From an uncultured Lysobacteraceae bacterium (lineage in GTDB: Bacteria; Pseudomonadota; Gammaproteobacteria; Xanthomonadales; Xanthomonadaceae), in contig CADECF010000003.1 in assembly GCA_902825775.1 (NCBI GenBank), positions 235,800 through 299,799 of the forward strand: a DNA stretch of 64,000 bases, written 5' to 3'. A program made the position numbers and the translations under genes. How positions within the stretch are numbered: the stretch's first letter is position 1; the number at the start of each line of letters is the position of its first letter. The notes beneath the pieces were generated by a model. The model did not search any database. It was not told where the DNA came from and worked only from the letters and a program-made list of their open reading frames with translations. This document shows positions 5,003-34,182 of this stretch, piece by piece.

Positions 5003-6441
5003 CGCAGGTCCGTTCCGATGTTTTCGCCCCAGGCCGCCAGGCGGTCGAGCAGTTCTCGCTTTTTGCCATCCTCGATGTGGGCGGCGCGTAAAACCGCTAT
5101 CTCGGCGTTGAAAGCGTCGAGCGTGAATTCCGACAAGCCGCTGTCCTCGATCAGCCTATGGCGGCGATACGCATTCCAACGTTCGTGCTCGGCCATGCTC
5201 AACGTGTCCGGCCAGTTGCGTGCCCGGTAGCGGAACAGCACTTCTGCCAACCGCGGATCTTGGAAACCGAAATCGCGCTGGCCCAGTTGCGCCGGCAAGG
5301 TGCTGCGCACCTGGCCGAACTTGCGTTTGTCGCCGTCGCCGATGAAGCCGTCGTACAACGCGGCGTCGGCATCGGCCGGCGTGCGTTCGGCTTCGTTCGC
5401 ATAGATGCGTCGCACTTTTTCGGCCAATGCGGGGCCGGCGGCGCGCAGTTTTTCGGCGCGCAGCGCCGCGACGTCGGGATCGATGCCCAGTCGCTCGAAA
5501 TCCGCTGGACGCAGGTGATCCCAGGCCACCAATGCGGGGCAGCGGTTCAAATGCACTTCTTTTAATCCGATGCGTTTCTCGCCTTCGGGCAGGTCCGCCG
5601 CGGGCGTGTAGAGGCGGTCGGCGATCTCGTCGGCGGGCAGGTCGAGCAGCGCGTCCGGTTCGCCGTCCAAATCGAACACGATCACGCGGCTGTCGATGCG
5701 CGGGTGCCTCGCCAAAGGCAGCACGGCCGCCGCACTGAGCCGGCTCGCCGGATAGCGTTGCGAGACGTGCAGCGCCGGCACCATGCCGACCACGTCCAGC
5801 AAGCCGGCCGCACGGCGCTTGTCGCGCAAGCCCAGAGCGTAATCCCAGAATCGCGGCTGGGCCTTGCGCAGCAGGCGCGCCATGCCGATCAGTGCGCGCA
5901 CGTCGGAAAGCGCCTCGTGCGCGTCGCCTTGCCGTACCGCGTTGGCGGCGGCCAGATGCTCCAGCCGGAACGAAGCGAACCCATCTTCGCGCTTGGGCCA
6001 TTCGATGCCGTCCGGCCGCAGCGCGTGCGCAAGACGCAGCACGTCGAGCAGGTCCCAGCGCGAATTGCCGCCGCGCCATTCGCGTTCGTAGGCGTCGTAG
6101 AAATTGCGGTAGAGGCCGTAGCGGACGAATTCGTCGTCGAAACGCAAGGAGTTGTAGCCGACGCTGCAGGTTTCCGGCCGCGCCATTTCCTCGAAGATGC
6201 GGGCGAAGGCTTCGGCCTCGTTGACGCCGTCGCGCTGCGCGTCCTGCGGGGCGATGCCGGTGATCAGGGTGGCGATGGGCGAGGGCAGCAGGTCGTCGGC
6301 GGGTTTGACGAAAAAATCGATCGGTGCTTCGACTTCGTTCAACTCGGCATCGGTGCGTATCGCCGCGAATTGCGCGATCCGTGTCCGGCGCGGGTCGCTG
6401 CCGAATGTTTCCAGGTCGTAGAACAGGAAGCTGGCCGGCAT
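4999..6441 (-). CDS. sbcB: Exodeoxyribonuclease I
   Basis: Exonuclease I degrades single-stranded DNA 3' to 5' and works in mismatch repair and recombination. The 480-residue product is close to the 475 residues of the E. coli enzyme. The DEDD exonuclease fold starts with FYDLETFG (Asp9, Glu11 as metal ligands) and contains the DALSDVRALI segment that carries later acidic ligands. The start at 6441 overlaps the kmo stop by one base (TAATG), so it may be translated by re-initiation after kmo. A much longer upstream reading exists in this frame but is antisense-like noise across kmo. Confidence 0.93.
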   Translation of the reverse strand: MPASFLFYDLETFGSDPRRTRIAQFAAIRTDAELNEVEAPIDFFVKPADDLLPSPIATLITGIAPQDAQRDGVNEAEAFARIFEEMARPETCSVGYNSLRFDDEFVRYGLYRNFYDAYEREWRGGNSRWDLLDVLRLAHALRPDGIEWPKREDGFASFRLEHLAAANAVRQGDAHEALSDVRALIGMARLLRKAQPRFWDYALGLRDKRRAAGLLDVVGMVPALHVSQRYPASRLSAAAVLPLARHPRIDSRVIVFDLDGEPDALLDLPADEIADRLYTPAADLPEGEKRIGLKEVHLNRCPALVAWDHLRPADFERLGIDPDVAALRAEKLRAAGPALAEKVRRIYANEAERTPADADAALYDGFIGDGDKRKFGQVRSTLPAQLGQRDFGFQDPRLAEVLFRYRARNWPDTLSMAEHERWNAYRRHRLIEDSGLSEFTLDAFNAEIAVLRAAHIEDGKKRELLDRLAAWGENIGTDLR

Positions 6442-7823
6442 TACGCGACGTCCTGCAGCGGTTGCAGCCGGGCCAGCACCTCGGCATCGACGGCTTGCCA
6501 ATCGACGGCATCCAGCGAATCCAGTCCTTGCGTGGCCCGGACCAGGATTTCGCGCTGTATGTCGCTGCGTTCCAGCGCGACGGAGTATGGGATCAGCATG
6601 AACGTGACCATCGTGTAATGCGGTACGAAGCGGTCTGGATGGCGTTCCTGCAGCTTGCGTTCGAGTTCGCGTTGCAGCAGGAAATCCGGGTCGTCGACGC
6701 GATCTCGCATCTCCAGATAGTTTTCCAGCGCCATCTGCTGGATGGCGGCCGCGTTGGGCTTGCGCTCGGCTTCGAAAGCCGCGAAAGCGCTGGCCAGATC
6801 GCTGTCGGCTGCCTCGAGCTTGCGCGCCAACGCGACGCAATCCTCGAACGCGCAGTTCATGCCCTGGCCATGGAAGGGGACCATCGCATGCGCCGCATCG
6901 CCGAGCAGCACGGCGCGGCCGTCAAGATGCCAGCGGTCGAGGTAGAGCGTAGCGAGCAGGCCCGGCGGATTGCGCTGCCAGTCTTCCTCCAATTTCGGGA
7001 TCAGCGGCAGCGCGTCGGCGAAATCGCGTTCGAACAGCGCGCGCGCGTCGGCCACGGATTTCAGGGTGGCGAAGCTGGGATCGCCTTCGTTGGGCAGGAA
7101 CAGAGTGACGGTGAAAGTCTTCTCGTCGTTGGGCAGCGCGATGCACATGTAAACGCCGCGCGGCCAGATGTGCAGAGCGTTGGGCTCGATCCGGAAGCCG
7201 CCGTCGGCCGCGGGCGGAATCTCCAGCTCTTTGTAGGAGTGGTCGAGGAATTCGGTGCGTTCGCCGAGATCGGAGCGTTTGTTCATCGCCGCGCGCAGCG
7301 CCGAGCCCGCGCCGTCGGCGCCGACCAGGGCGCGGAATGCGGTTTCGTGCGATCGGTTGGTGCGATCGTCGTGGAAGCGCGCGGTGCAGGCATCGAAATC
7401 GACGCTGTCGAGGCGGCGGTCGAAGTGAAGTGTGGCGCCGGCGCGTTCGGCGAGGCCGAGCAGGGTGATGTTGAGGTCGCCGCGATGCACCGACCAGATC
7501 ACTTCCGAGTCGTCGCGCCCGTAGCGCTGCAGCTGCAGACTGCCGTCGAGGAAATGCACCATGCGGCCGCGCATCATTACGGCCTGCGCCATCACCGGTT
7601 CGTCGGCATTGGCTTGTCGCAGGGCATTGCGGCCGCGTTCGGCCAGAGCCAAGTTGATCGAACGGCCGCCTTCGTAGCCCTTGATCCGCGGATCGCCGCG
7701 TTTTTCGTAAACATCGATGCGCCAGCCGCGCCTGGCGAGCAGCGTGGCGAGCAGGGCGCCGGCGAGACCCGCGCCGACGATGGTGAGGGACTTCTCAGTC
7801 GAAGTGTTCAAGACGTCATCCAA
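6441..7823 (-). CDS. kmo: Kynurenine 3-monooxygenase
   Basis: This flavoprotein hydroxylates L-kynurenine to 3-hydroxykynurenine with NADPH and O2. The 460-residue product shows the FAD-binding VGAGLAGALLA motif near residue 17 and the second flavin motif GDAAHAMVPFHGQGMNCAFEDC near residue 310, which is highly characteristic of KMO. It lies downstream of kynU in the same orientation, but the two are separated by the inverted-repeat GIY-YIG element and a hexamer tandem repeat, so it may need its own promoter. The next gene, sbcB, overlaps by one base. Confidence 0.94.
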   Translation of the reverse strand: MDDVLNTSTEKSLTIVGAGLAGALLATLLARRGWRIDVYEKRGDPRIKGYEGGRSINLALAERGRNALRQANADEPVMAQAVMMRGRMVHFLDGSLQLQRYGRDDSEVIWSVHRGDLNITLLGLAERAGATLHFDRRLDSVDFDACTARFHDDRTNRSHETAFRALVGADGAGSALRAAMNKRSDLGERTEFLDHSYKELEIPPAADGGFRIEPNALHIWPRGVYMCIALPNDEKTFTVTLFLPNEGDPSFATLKSVADARALFERDFADALPLIPKLEEDWQRNPPGLLATLYLDRWHLDGRAVLLGDAAHAMVPFHGQGMNCAFEDCVALARKLEAADSDLASAFAAFEAERKPNAAAIQQMALENYLEMRDRVDDPDFLLQRELERKLQERHPDRFVPHYTMVTFMLIPYSVALERSDIQREILVRATQGLDSLDAVDWQAVDAEVLARLQPLQDVA

Positions 7824-7832
7824 ATACGATCT

Positions 7833-7879
<47 letters not shown>

Positions 7880-7884
7880 CTTAA

Positions 7885-8270
7885 AGCCGTCATTCCCGCG
7901 AAGGCGGGAATCCAGCGACTTTGCTCTGACCCGTAATCTCATCCCAAAGATCGTTCCAATACGGATTCTTTTCCTCGATCAGCCTGACTTTCCAAGCCCG
8001 GTTCCACTTCTTAATCTGCTGCTCACGGGCAATGGCAGAAAACATGTCGCCATGAAGCTCGAACCAAACCAATTTACCGATGCCGTACCGTTTCGTGAAA
8101 CCTTCGATGACATGCATCGCGATGCTGCCATGTCCTGCCGATCAGGTTGCTGGTGACGCCGATATACAACGTCGCATTCCGGTCTTTCGCCATTATGTAA
8201 ACCGCCGGTTGTTTTTCCATAACCGTCCAAGCCAAGTCGCTGGATTCCCGCCTTCGCGGGAATGACGGCT
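7885..8270. mobile_element. Small element with 37-bp perfect terminal inverted repeats enclosing a GIY-YIG gene
   Basis: The ends at 7885-7921 and 8234-8270 are exact reverse complements over 37 bases (core CATTCCCGCGAAGGCGGGAA). They enclose only the broken GIY-YIG nuclease gene. The whole unit is 386 bp and sits between kynU and kmo, 8 bases past the kynU stop. The same 37-base ends, with one base changed, flank a 163-bp unit at 34020-34182. That it moves, or once moved, is an inference from structure; no target-site duplication is evident. Confidence 0.65.
7890..8220 (-). pseudogene. GIY-YIG endonuclease family gene, frameshifted
   Basis: From 8220 one frame reads MEKQPAVYIMAKDRNATLYIGV..., the GIY-YIG core with the usual VYIM/LYIG strands, then QHRD and out of frame to a stop. 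From 8117 a second frame carries the rest of the domain (VIEGFTKRYGIGKLVWFE, then EQQIKKWNRAWK and NPYWNDLW). Joining them needs removal of about one base near 8118-8121, so this copy has a net one-base insertion. The C-terminus runs into the inverted repeat, which encodes the last residues (AGFPPSRE) and the stop. Small stand-alone GIY-YIG proteins of about 100 residues are common; their cellular role is mostly unknown. Confidence 0.85.
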
Positions 8271-8278
8271 AAAAGCGA

Positions 8279-9556
8279 CTATCCCGGCCACATTTCGACT
8301 GTTCTGATAAAACGAAGCACATCAGTAAAATTGTTGTATAGCGGCGCAGGCGAAATACGGATCACATCCGGTTCCCGCCAATCGCCCAGAACGCCCTGAG
8401 TCGCTAGGTAATCGAACAGCTGACGTCCGCGCTCGCGTCCACCCACGACTCGCAACGACAATTGACAGCCGCGCCGTTCAGGCTCGCTCGGGGTGGCGAT
8501 CTGCAGCGTGCCGGAAAGACGTTCACGTATCAGCATTTCCAAATAACCGGTGAGCTTCACCGACTTCTCGCGCAACGCCGCCATACCGGCGCGTTCGAAC
8601 AGTTCCAGCGAGCCGCGCAACGGCGCCAGGCCCAGGATCGGCGGATTGCTGAGTTGCCAGCCGTCCGCGCCCGGCGTCGGTACGAATTCCGGGCCCATGC
8701 GGAAACGCGTCGATTGCTGATGGCCCCACCAACCCGCGAAACGCGGCCGATCGCTGCGCGCATGGCGCGCATGCACGAAACAGCCGGCCACGGCGCCCGG
8801 GCCGGAGTTCATGTACTTGTAATGGCACCAGACGGCGAAATCCGCATCGCTATCGTGCAATTGCAACGGAATATTGCCCACCGCGTGGGCGAGATCGAAA
8901 CCGACGATAGCGCCTGCGGCGTGGCCCAAGCGTGCTATTTCCTTCAGATCGAACGCCTGGCCGTTGCGGTATTGCACGCCGGGCCAGACGATCAACGCCA
9001 CGCGCGAACCGTGCTCGGCGATGGCGCGCTCGATGGATTGCATCGAAAAGGTGCCGTCCGGTTCGTCCGGTTGCAGTTCGATCAGGTCGTTCGCCGGATC
9101 GAAGCCATGGAACCGGACTTGCGATTCCAGCGCATAGCGGTCCGACGGGAATGCGCCGGCTTCCATCAGGATCGCGTGCCGTTCCCGCGTCGGCCGATAG
9201 AAGCTGACCATCATCAGATGAAGATTGGCGGTGAGCGAATTCATCGCCACCACTTCACCGGGATGCGCGCCGACGACGTTAGCGAGCGGGTCGCGGACCA
9301 GCTCGTGATAAGGCATCCACTGCGCCTGGCCGGTGAAATGGCCTTCGACCGCTTCCATCGCCCATTTGTCCAACACTTCTTCGACATGCGCTCGCGCGGA
9401 TTTGGGCTGCAGTCCGAGCGAGTTTCCGCAGAAGTAAGCCTGTTCCGCGCCGCCGTGCCGCGGAATCAGGAATTCGTTGCGGAACGCGCGCAGCGGATCG
9501 GCGTCATCCTGCGCCTGCGCGTAAGAGTAGGAATCCATGTCGTTCATTTCGGACAT
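8279..9556 (-). CDS. kynU: Kynureninase
   Basis: This PLP enzyme cleaves kynurenine or 3-hydroxykynurenine to (3-hydroxy)anthranilate and alanine. The 425-residue product keeps FCGNSLGLQPK near residue 42, the PLP-aspartate stretch GFDLAHAVGN (Asp221) and the Schiff-base lysine in HYKYMNSGPG (Lys247). The start at 9556 (MSEMNDMDSY) lies 14 bases after the ACMSD stop. Its stop is immediately followed by the GIY-YIG inverted-repeat element, which separates it from kmo. Confidence 0.95.
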   Translation of the reverse strand: MSEMNDMDSYSYAQAQDDADPLRAFRNEFLIPRHGGAEQAYFCGNSLGLQPKSARAHVEEVLDKWAMEAVEGHFTGQAQWMPYHELVRDPLANVVGAHPGEVVAMNSLTANLHLMMVSFYRPTRERHAILMEAGAFPSDRYALESQVRFHGFDPANDLIELQPDEPDGTFSMQSIERAIAEHGSRVALIVWPGVQYRNGQAFDLKEIARLGHAAGAIVGFDLAHAVGNIPLQLHDSDADFAVWCHYKYMNSGPGAVAGCFVHARHARSDRPRFAGWWGHQQSTRFRMGPEFVPTPGADGWQLSNPPILGLAPLRGSLELFERAGMAALREKSVKLTGYLEMLIRERLSGTLQIATPSEPERRGCQLSLRVVGGRERGRQLFDYLATQGVLGDWREPDVIRISPAPLYNNFTDVLRFIRTVEMWPG

Positions 9557-34019: not shown

Positions 34020-34182
34020 AGCCGTCATTCCCGCGAAGGCGGGAATCCAGTGACTTCCGCTTTAGCCCTCTCCCGCTTGCGGGAGAGGGTTGGGAGAGGG
34101 CGCGCGGAATGGCAGATGGCCTCGTCACGATCTGGAGAGGCCTTAAAGTCACTGGATTCCCGCCTTCGCGGGAATGACGGCT
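34020..34182. mobile_element. MITE-like unit with the 37-bp inverted repeats and an internal family F palindrome
   Basis: Ends at 34020-34056 and 34146-34182 are perfect 37-base reverse complements, identical to the GIY-YIG element ends except for one base (CAGTGACTT for CAGCGACTT). Inside is a roughly 90-base segment (34064-34156) shared with 18145-18235, starting with CCCTCTCCCGCTTGCGGGAG. No protein is encoded. A gene-less relative mobilised in trans would look like this. It fills half of the 334-base gap between cutC and the GH92 gene. Confidence 0.6.

Follow-up and report, generated by a model that had tools for sequence, protein, structure and literature searches.

The 64,000-nt window analysed here, from an uncultured Lysobacteraceae bacterium, raises the question of why a small gene for a GIY-YIG nuclease stands between two inverted repeats in the space that separates kynU from kmo, and of what ties the gene to the repeats. 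A sequence-only reading of the window had described perfect 37-base inverted repeats around a stand-alone GIY-YIG gene, whose C-terminal codons and stop lie in one of them, and had proposed that the nuclease plays for these repeats the part of a RAYT transposase. The repeats were found exactly as described (Table 1), enclosed in arms of 51 nt (7880-7930 and 8225-8275) that are 90% complementary, and the stop codon (7890-7892) falls in the arm, where the frame ends in ...GFPPSRE*. As regards the gene, its identity stood but its integrity did not: both pieces match the Pfam GIY-YIG domain, but they lie in two frames. The copy at the same kynU-kmo place in a congeneric genome (L042, in G002) is one open frame of 109 codons, so the window copy represents either a frameshifted pseudogene or a sequencing error. 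The frameshift had escaped the earlier reading, as had the membership of the repeat in a described class, the CGTC REPs. The window copy is apparently a decayed member of a large and apparently undescribed system. Two other readings of the locus were discarded: no transcription terminator-like site was found at the unit, which removes the arms as terminators, and an Rfam search of positions 7600-8600 returned no RNA family match at E<=0.1, which removes a known RNA family. A TGCCGT hexamer repeat (7834-7881) adjoins the unit on the kmo side, and in G002 a different short repeat, GCAACA, occupies that place.

Table 1. Position of the features of the unit and its surroundings in the window; the last line lists loci of a second subfamily by locus name.
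Feature	Position	Strand	Description
CGTC-tagged REP, arm 3' of the gene	7885..7921	+	perfect 37-nt inverted repeat, tag outward; contains the stop codon of the second frame
CGTC-tagged REP, arm 5' of the gene	8234..8270	-	perfect 37-nt inverted repeat, tag outward
GIY-YIG gene, N-terminal piece	8074..8220	-	48 codons from the ATG at 8220, then a stop (frameshifted); PF01541 E 5.7e-5
GIY-YIG gene, C-terminal piece	7890..8117	-	75-codon ORF in the other frame, with its end in the REP arm; PF01541 E 0.0021, which taken alone misses the curated cut-off
Complete unit, with the broken GIY-YIG gene between its two REPs, in the kynU-kmo gap	7880..8275	-	51-nt arms
kynU, upstream neighbour (context)	8279..9556	-	425-aa ORF; name from the sequence-only reading; homologues aligned
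kmo, downstream neighbour (context)	6441..7823	-	460-aa ORF; found in 57 of 59 family genomes
Gene-less tag-out REP pair, same class as the unit arms	34024..34178	.	cores at 34024-34050 (+) and 34152-34178 (-)
UPF0213-like loci with other hairpin repeats	L105, L107, L108, L110; L236, L242, L254; L372, L373, L375, L378, L380, L381		

Each arm reads CGTC-ATTCCCGC-GAAG-GCGGGAAT-CCA followed by a short extension, GCGACTT, and the CGTC tag, 8-bp stem, 4-nt loop and CCA tail of the CGTC-1 REPs are all present (Di Nocera 2013). According to the accessible part of that report, CGTC REPs are known from five phyla, mostly from alphaproteobacteria, and include RPE-4 and RPE-6 of Rickettsia conorii as well as dRS3 of Neisseria, itself a CGTC-1 REP; in the same part it is stated that no transposase gene was found associated with them and that they "apparently lack a dedicated transposase". 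As DNA, the arms form hairpins of -9 kcal/mol (z -2.66 for the 3' arm; z -2.38 for the 5' arm, calculated on 8233-8269). In the lowest-energy DNA fold (7886-7922 and 34021-34057) the GTC tag is paired with a GAC in the tail, which recalls the guide pairing of IS200/IS605 ends; by eye, this GAC is absent from some arm classes. The 27-nt core occurs four times in the window, compared with a mean of 0 in 100 dinucleotide shuffles. When up to two mismatches are allowed, the whole genome (3.76 Mb) has 82 copies, 41 being exact, against 0 for the reversed-pattern control. Neighbouring REPs less than 600 bp apart in this genome form pairs with the tag outward in 17 of 17 cases, and the two habits of CGTC-1 REPs, multiple copies and a predominance of tag-out (HH) pairs, are therefore both found here. 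In 16 of these 17 close pairs the starts lie 56-204 bp apart, too short for the gene, against 351 bp in the GIY-YIG unit. Several gene-less pairs carry an additional palindromic repeat, GCCCTCTCCCGCTTGCGGGAGAGGG, at about the same place, with a recurrent spacing near 127 bp. Among 28 arm types, hand-picked to share one geometry, stem bases were seen to covary: 39 changes were two-sided (10.6 in shuffles) and none was one-sided; G-T intermediates did not appear, which we take as a hint that the repeat is recognised as DNA rather than RNA.

Apart from L032, which we infer to be UvrC, the own genome holds three GIY-YIG loci: the one in the window, L031 on contig C5, which is intact, and L033 on C3, which is broken. 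It had been suggested that other gene copies with the same 37-base ends be looked for; all three loci are indeed flanked on both sides by inverted CGTC-like palindromes, but the arm class differs at each (TTCCCGCG stem; GTCATCCCGAACGCAGTGAGGGATCT; CCCAGCGAAAGCTGGGACCCATTTTG), and some arms, GTCATCCCGAACGCAGTGAGGGATCT for example, fall outside the four published CGTC REP families. The intact L031 protein matches PF01541 (GIY-YIG) at E 2e-12 as its sole Pfam match, with no HuH Y1 transposase domain. Residues Y7, Y18, G20, R28, E65 and N84 are invariant in 17 chosen sequences, as is typical of the GIY-YIG superfamily, and the catalytic residues are presumably among the conserved Tyr, Tyr, Arg, Glu and Asn. 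The structure model (pLDDT 92.6) has as its nearest solved folds UPF0213 protein BH0048 (1zg2), Slx1-Slx4 and UvrC, with weak E-values (best 5.3e-3), and the sequence search agrees, with UPF0213 (1zg2), Slx1-Slx4 and UvrC as best matches. Since branched DNA is the substrate of Slx1 (title of entry 6sei), a hairpin or cruciform may be proposed as that of the present enzyme. With a median dN/dS of 0.084 (56 usable of 100 pairs), the GIY-YIG gene is under purifying selection.

How general is the association of gene and repeat? Inverted arms were scored within 300 bp of each gene, with a main cut at 20 that was set after the first results had been viewed. In the own family a relative of the L031 protein occurs in 52 of 149 genomes, and 56 of 76 distinct loci reach this cut (58 at a score of at least 18), compared with 0/100 neighbouring genes and 0/1580 random placements; one place in G121 is left out of the 76, and a second partial match beside L059 is not counted separately. 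Across the phylum, a profile match at E<=1e-8 was obtained in 104 of 299 genomes, a count that takes in more distant relatives, and outside the own family 61 of 90 loci score at least 20 (placements, 0/1350). The corresponding figure for loci of named species is 66 of 80 against 4 of 1200 placements, in a set that overlaps the family set (L288, of Lysobacter sp. Root494, is L088); two or all of these four placements may be REP pairs elsewhere. As in a REPtron, the gene thus lies between inverted REPs mostly, but not always, arms of score 20 being absent at 20/76 family, 29/90 phylum and 14/80 named loci. Among 14 family loci with weak arms, six have REPs nearby (within 1 kb), none of them in a scored pair, and the remaining eight have none. 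The tag points outward at 101 of 121 loci of the family and phylum sets (inward at 10, untypable at 10) and at 56 of 66 in the named set (6 inward, 4 untyped), and the unit has a median span of 414 bp. Genes without repeats, together with repeats unlinked to the gene, had been named beforehand as the mark of a chance association; the three locus sets mostly gave the opposite picture.

The gene is present in three of the CGTC-carrier species named in the accessible part of Di Nocera 2013. Their arm scores were 42 in Azospirillum lipoferum 4B, 31 on pNL2 of Novosphingobium aromaticivorans and 18, a weak value, on pSymB of Sinorhizobium meliloti. The score in Aeromonas caviae was 23. On plasmid AZO_p3 of A. 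lipoferum 4B the unit (L403) separates sufB from sufC, two neighbours in a gene cluster, much as the unit of the window separates kynU from kmo. In Neisseria gonorrhoeae NZ_CP119140, a replicon filed as a plasmid and chromosome-sized, the gene (score 26.5) stands within 16 ATTCCC-N8-GGGAAT motifs spread over 4.3 kb; we take this motif to be dRS3. More distant GIY-YIG genes, 25 loci in all, behave differently: the 16 of the own class all score below 16, and of the nine outside it three reach 20, with another type of repeat. A second subfamily, resembling UPF0213, also tends to be enclosed by inverted hairpin repeats, but of different types, frequently CTGAGC...GTCGAAGG. In a set of 30 loci 29 were scored, L400 being left out as the own L031 locus, and 12 reach 20, or 8 once the places that belong to the main subfamily (L391, L393, L398, L401) are subtracted. 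Two genomes (L104, L108) have open frames of 274 and 298 residues in which the distant GIY-YIG domain runs on, in frame, into a second domain that by eye resembles a TadA-type deaminase.

If the enzyme belongs to the repeat, then the sequences of both should vary together. Over both sets of loci, protein distance and arm distance are correlated (Mantel r 0.525, n=104; permuted maximum 0.233 in 3000), and so they are within the family (r 0.62, n=47; permuted maximum 0.48 in 5000) and in the family without its most distant loci (r 0.34, n=43; permuted maximum 0.32 in 5000). Genus labels were assigned for part of the genomes only in this test. The genome background was removed by exchanging arms only between loci of one genome: in 25 genomes with 57 loci, 0 of 20000 such permutations matched the fit of the real assignment to the nearest outside relative. 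Enzyme and repeat co-diverge, as they do in REPtrons.

Gene presence is also linked to the abundance of the cognate REP, another feature of REPtrons, with exceptions that we name below. Among the 149 family genomes, class-A REPs (exact pattern) number 1004 in the 52 genomes with the gene against 53 in the 97 without, and permutation confined to the 12 mixed genera gave 19/20000. The link is specific to the class of the arms. At least three class-A REPs are found in 18/21 genomes with class-A arms and in 18/128 of the others (p 1e-10), or 18/21 and 12/128 when at least five are counted (p 1e-12); for class B the figures are 6/6 and 15/143 at three copies or more (p 4e-6), and 4/6 and 13/143 at five or more (p 0.002). 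The cross terms between classes A and B gave p 0.18 and 0.15 at the lower threshold, and 0.07 and 0.10, near significance, at the higher one. Among the exceptions, G036, G050 and G100 carry 6-13 class-A REPs with no gene detected; G035 keeps a gene remnant between REP arms; G002 and G129 hold 89 and 30 class-B REPs, with loci that lack class-B arms; and G041, G095, G106 and G108 each have 54-80 class-B REPs and a GIY-YIG gene that is not flanked by inverted arms. Upstream of the gene in G106 (L090), class-B REPs of either orientation are densely packed, with 13 matches within 1 kb.

Association, specific pairing and the link with abundance hold, with the exceptions given. They argue that the unit in the window is probably a decayed copy of a REPtron in which the CGTC REPs have as their cognate enzyme a stand-alone, SLX1/UPF0213-like GIY-YIG nuclease instead of a HuH/Y1 RAYT. 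We class it as a REPtron variant rather than as a RAYT because the defining enzyme and the tag differ. The proposal that a GIY-YIG nuclease takes the part of RAYT for these repeats is, in this sense, supported by association and co-divergence; that the enzyme cuts REPs and thereby mobilises them appears rather likely, as an extrapolation from these patterns.

Co-divergence could also arise if the nuclease were a maintenance enzyme that resolves REP hairpins or cruciforms, in repair or chromosome care, with the REPs being spread by something else. The nearest folds, UPF0213 and the branched-DNA nuclease Slx1, would suit such a role, and so would the behaviour of the gene itself. Its closest copies within a genome are 38-82% identical (25 genomes), and units are syntenic within close species, notably in the Pseudomonas oleovorans/mendocina group, and lie elsewhere beyond them; named pairs with at least 60% identity share both flanks in 43 cases, one in 50 and none in 1102, short contigs being counted. 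The gene is for these reasons no active transposon. Near-identical genomic copies, as expected of an IS or MITE, are found for the REPs themselves but not for the gene, and no fresh insertion with a clean junction was seen among the loci compared. We conclude that spread, if any, is of the REPs, the nuclease remaining single-copy per class, since gene copies are so divergent and units stay put. Orthologous RAYT genes likewise hold their genomic position (accessible part of Nunvar 2010). However, an enzyme that merely cares for REPs needs no position between two tag-outward REPs, nor a stop codon inside the arm (11/51 units), and gene and cognate REPs are gained and lost jointly between related genomes. 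We therefore regard a pure maintenance role as unlikely.

A second alternative is that RAYTs or another enzyme move the REPs and that the GIY-YIG gene is cargo caught between two of them. A Y1 transposase gene does occur in 16 of 20 REP-bearing genomes tested, and 16/17 close REP pairs of the own genome leave too little room for the gene, with other material in the six gene-less pairs that were read. Sought in flanks of 450 nt against 300 for GIY-YIG, inverted arms that reach 20 surround 17 of 30 Y1 loci in those 20 genomes, but they are of another type: 14 of the 17 show GT(A/G)GG (e.g. TTGTAGGAGCGGCTTCAGCCGCGAGC of the own genome), which is the head of RAYT REPs in the accessible part of Nunvar 2010. 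One Y1 arm, at L268, also contains the letters CGTCGC; the others show no match to a loose CGTC/GTCAT pattern. The Y1 loci thus serve as a positive control and separate the two systems. Moreover, four genomes (G037, G086, G095, G115) carry 13-37 class-A REPs and a GIY-YIG match with no Y1 match at E<=1e-5. On these two grounds RAYT was rejected as the likelier mover of CGTC REPs. Cargo, finally, would neither track the arm sequence within a genome nor predict the abundance of a REP class, and we hold this explanation to be quite improbable.

GIY-YIG enzymes include homing endonucleases, so a free-standing gene of this type might insert itself into existing REP pairs, and gene-less pairs in the same orientation do exist. 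The kynU-kmo junction bears on this; it was read in 30 family genomes out of the 57 in which kmo was matched. The unit is there in four of the 30 (G000, G002, G057, G058) and, from another search, in G024. At the other 26 it is absent, with gaps of -26 to 221 nt, for example 4 nt in G017, of the same genus as G058, against 455 nt in the window; empty sites in relatives, which the sequence-only reading had proposed to compare, are thus common, and its remark that the unit breaks the spacing of the two genes was correct. None of the 26 gene-less junctions, all of one type, holds a tag-out REP pair waiting for a gene, although homing would call for one; a lone REP is found in G041 and a degenerate REP-like palindrome in G016. 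At this site, then, insertion of a homing-type gene into a REP pair is very unlikely to account for the unit. The copies in G057 and G024 are nearest to proteins other than the nearest one of the window copy, which suggests that the unit may have arrived separately, more than once, at this one junction; the flanks are too diverged for any target-site duplication to be read. Chance is practically negligible as an explanation, and so is any general tendency of REPs to collect at gene ends: published REPs are mainly intergenic and often near gene 3' ends (accessible part of Di Nocera 2013), but arms at 0/100 neighbouring genes and 4/4130 placements stand against 56/76, 61/90 and 66/80 GIY-YIG loci, controls by which chance was rejected, in addition to the lack of a terminator-like site at the unit and the 0/16 distant loci of the own class that reach a score of 16.

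Returning to the cognate nuclease, the following mechanism may be envisaged. The enzyme would recognise its own REP as a hairpin or cruciform, through stem sequence and GTC tag, and wherever the DNA is extruded or single-stranded it would nick or resolve that structure, at the tag or close by. In this way REPs and tag-out REP pairs might begin to be copied or joined, in trans, to new sites, while the gene's own unit, with the same arms, would rarely move or be lost. Each genome would keep a single such nuclease or a few, every one of them single-copy and matched to a multi-copy REP class of its own.

On balance we lean towards a wider proposal, namely that GIY-YIG nucleases are the missing mobilisers of CGTC REPs across Pseudomonadota and perhaps beyond, including dRS3 of Neisseria: a second kind of REPtron, of independent origin, in which the element is spread by a GIY-YIG enzyme acting on hairpins, with a UPF0213-like subfamily paired to another hairpin repeat (CTGAGCTTGTCGAAGG type). 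A candidate partner is thereby named for a widespread repeat class whose mobilising enzyme was left open in the accessible part of Di Nocera 2013. Should the proposal be true, the REP way of life would have two origins, with nuclease chemistries that are unrelated and coexist in the same genomes, and a family of hairpin-specific nucleases would be at hand with more than 100 enzyme-substrate pairs (121 loci with an arm score of at least 18). One small protein, once purified, and a handful of oligonucleotides would suffice to put the cognate pairing to the test. In the open PMC literature, searched by title and start of abstract with preprints and subscription journals outside the scope, no earlier link between GIY-YIG and REPs was found. 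In the accessible part of PMC9465073, GIY-YIG and RAYT genes are merely entries of one table; the text-searched part of the papers citing Di Nocera 2013 contains no mention of GIY, and the terms "palindrom" and "inverted repeat" are absent from PMC1564403, a phylogenomic study of GIY-YIG.

Among known systems, the RAYT or TnpA-REP REPtrons are the most alike. Their hallmarks, in the accessible part of Nunvar 2010, are inverted flanking REPs at all times, co-evolution of gene and repeat, and a gene presence that follows the abundance of the cognate REP. The present system shares with them a gene between two inverted REPs of a multi-copy class, the co-divergence of enzyme and REP, the link of gene presence to cognate REP abundance, few gene copies, and REP pairs as apparent non-autonomous forms. 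It differs in that RAYTs are IS200/IS605-like HuH Y1 enzymes of GTAG REPs, whereas the enzyme here is a GIY-YIG nuclease of an unrelated superfamily, and its arms are tagged CGTC/GTCAT in place of the GT(A/G)G head. Cleavage of single-stranded DNA and strand transfer are known for TnpA-REP (accessible part of Corneloup 2021), whereas any activity of the GIY-YIG nuclease on REPs is predicted; both systems occur together in the same genomes. With the CGTC REPs of Di Nocera 2013 the arms have in common the tag, stem, loop, CCA tail and tag-out (HH) pairs, and what sets them apart from the published description is a recurrent partner, the GIY-YIG gene. The resemblance to GIY-YIG homing endonucleases lies in the superfamily and in a selfish-looking gene, but there is no intron and no added DNA-binding domain in the 96-residue protein, and gene-less kynU-kmo sites do not show an uninterrupted REP pair. 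Fold and active-site residues, finally, are those of the UPF0213 and SLX1-like nucleases. In eukaryotes SLX1 acts together with SLX4 and is not repeat-borne, and distant homologues of the own class have inverted arms in 0 of 16 cases, whereas the gene described here mostly lies between inverted repeats.
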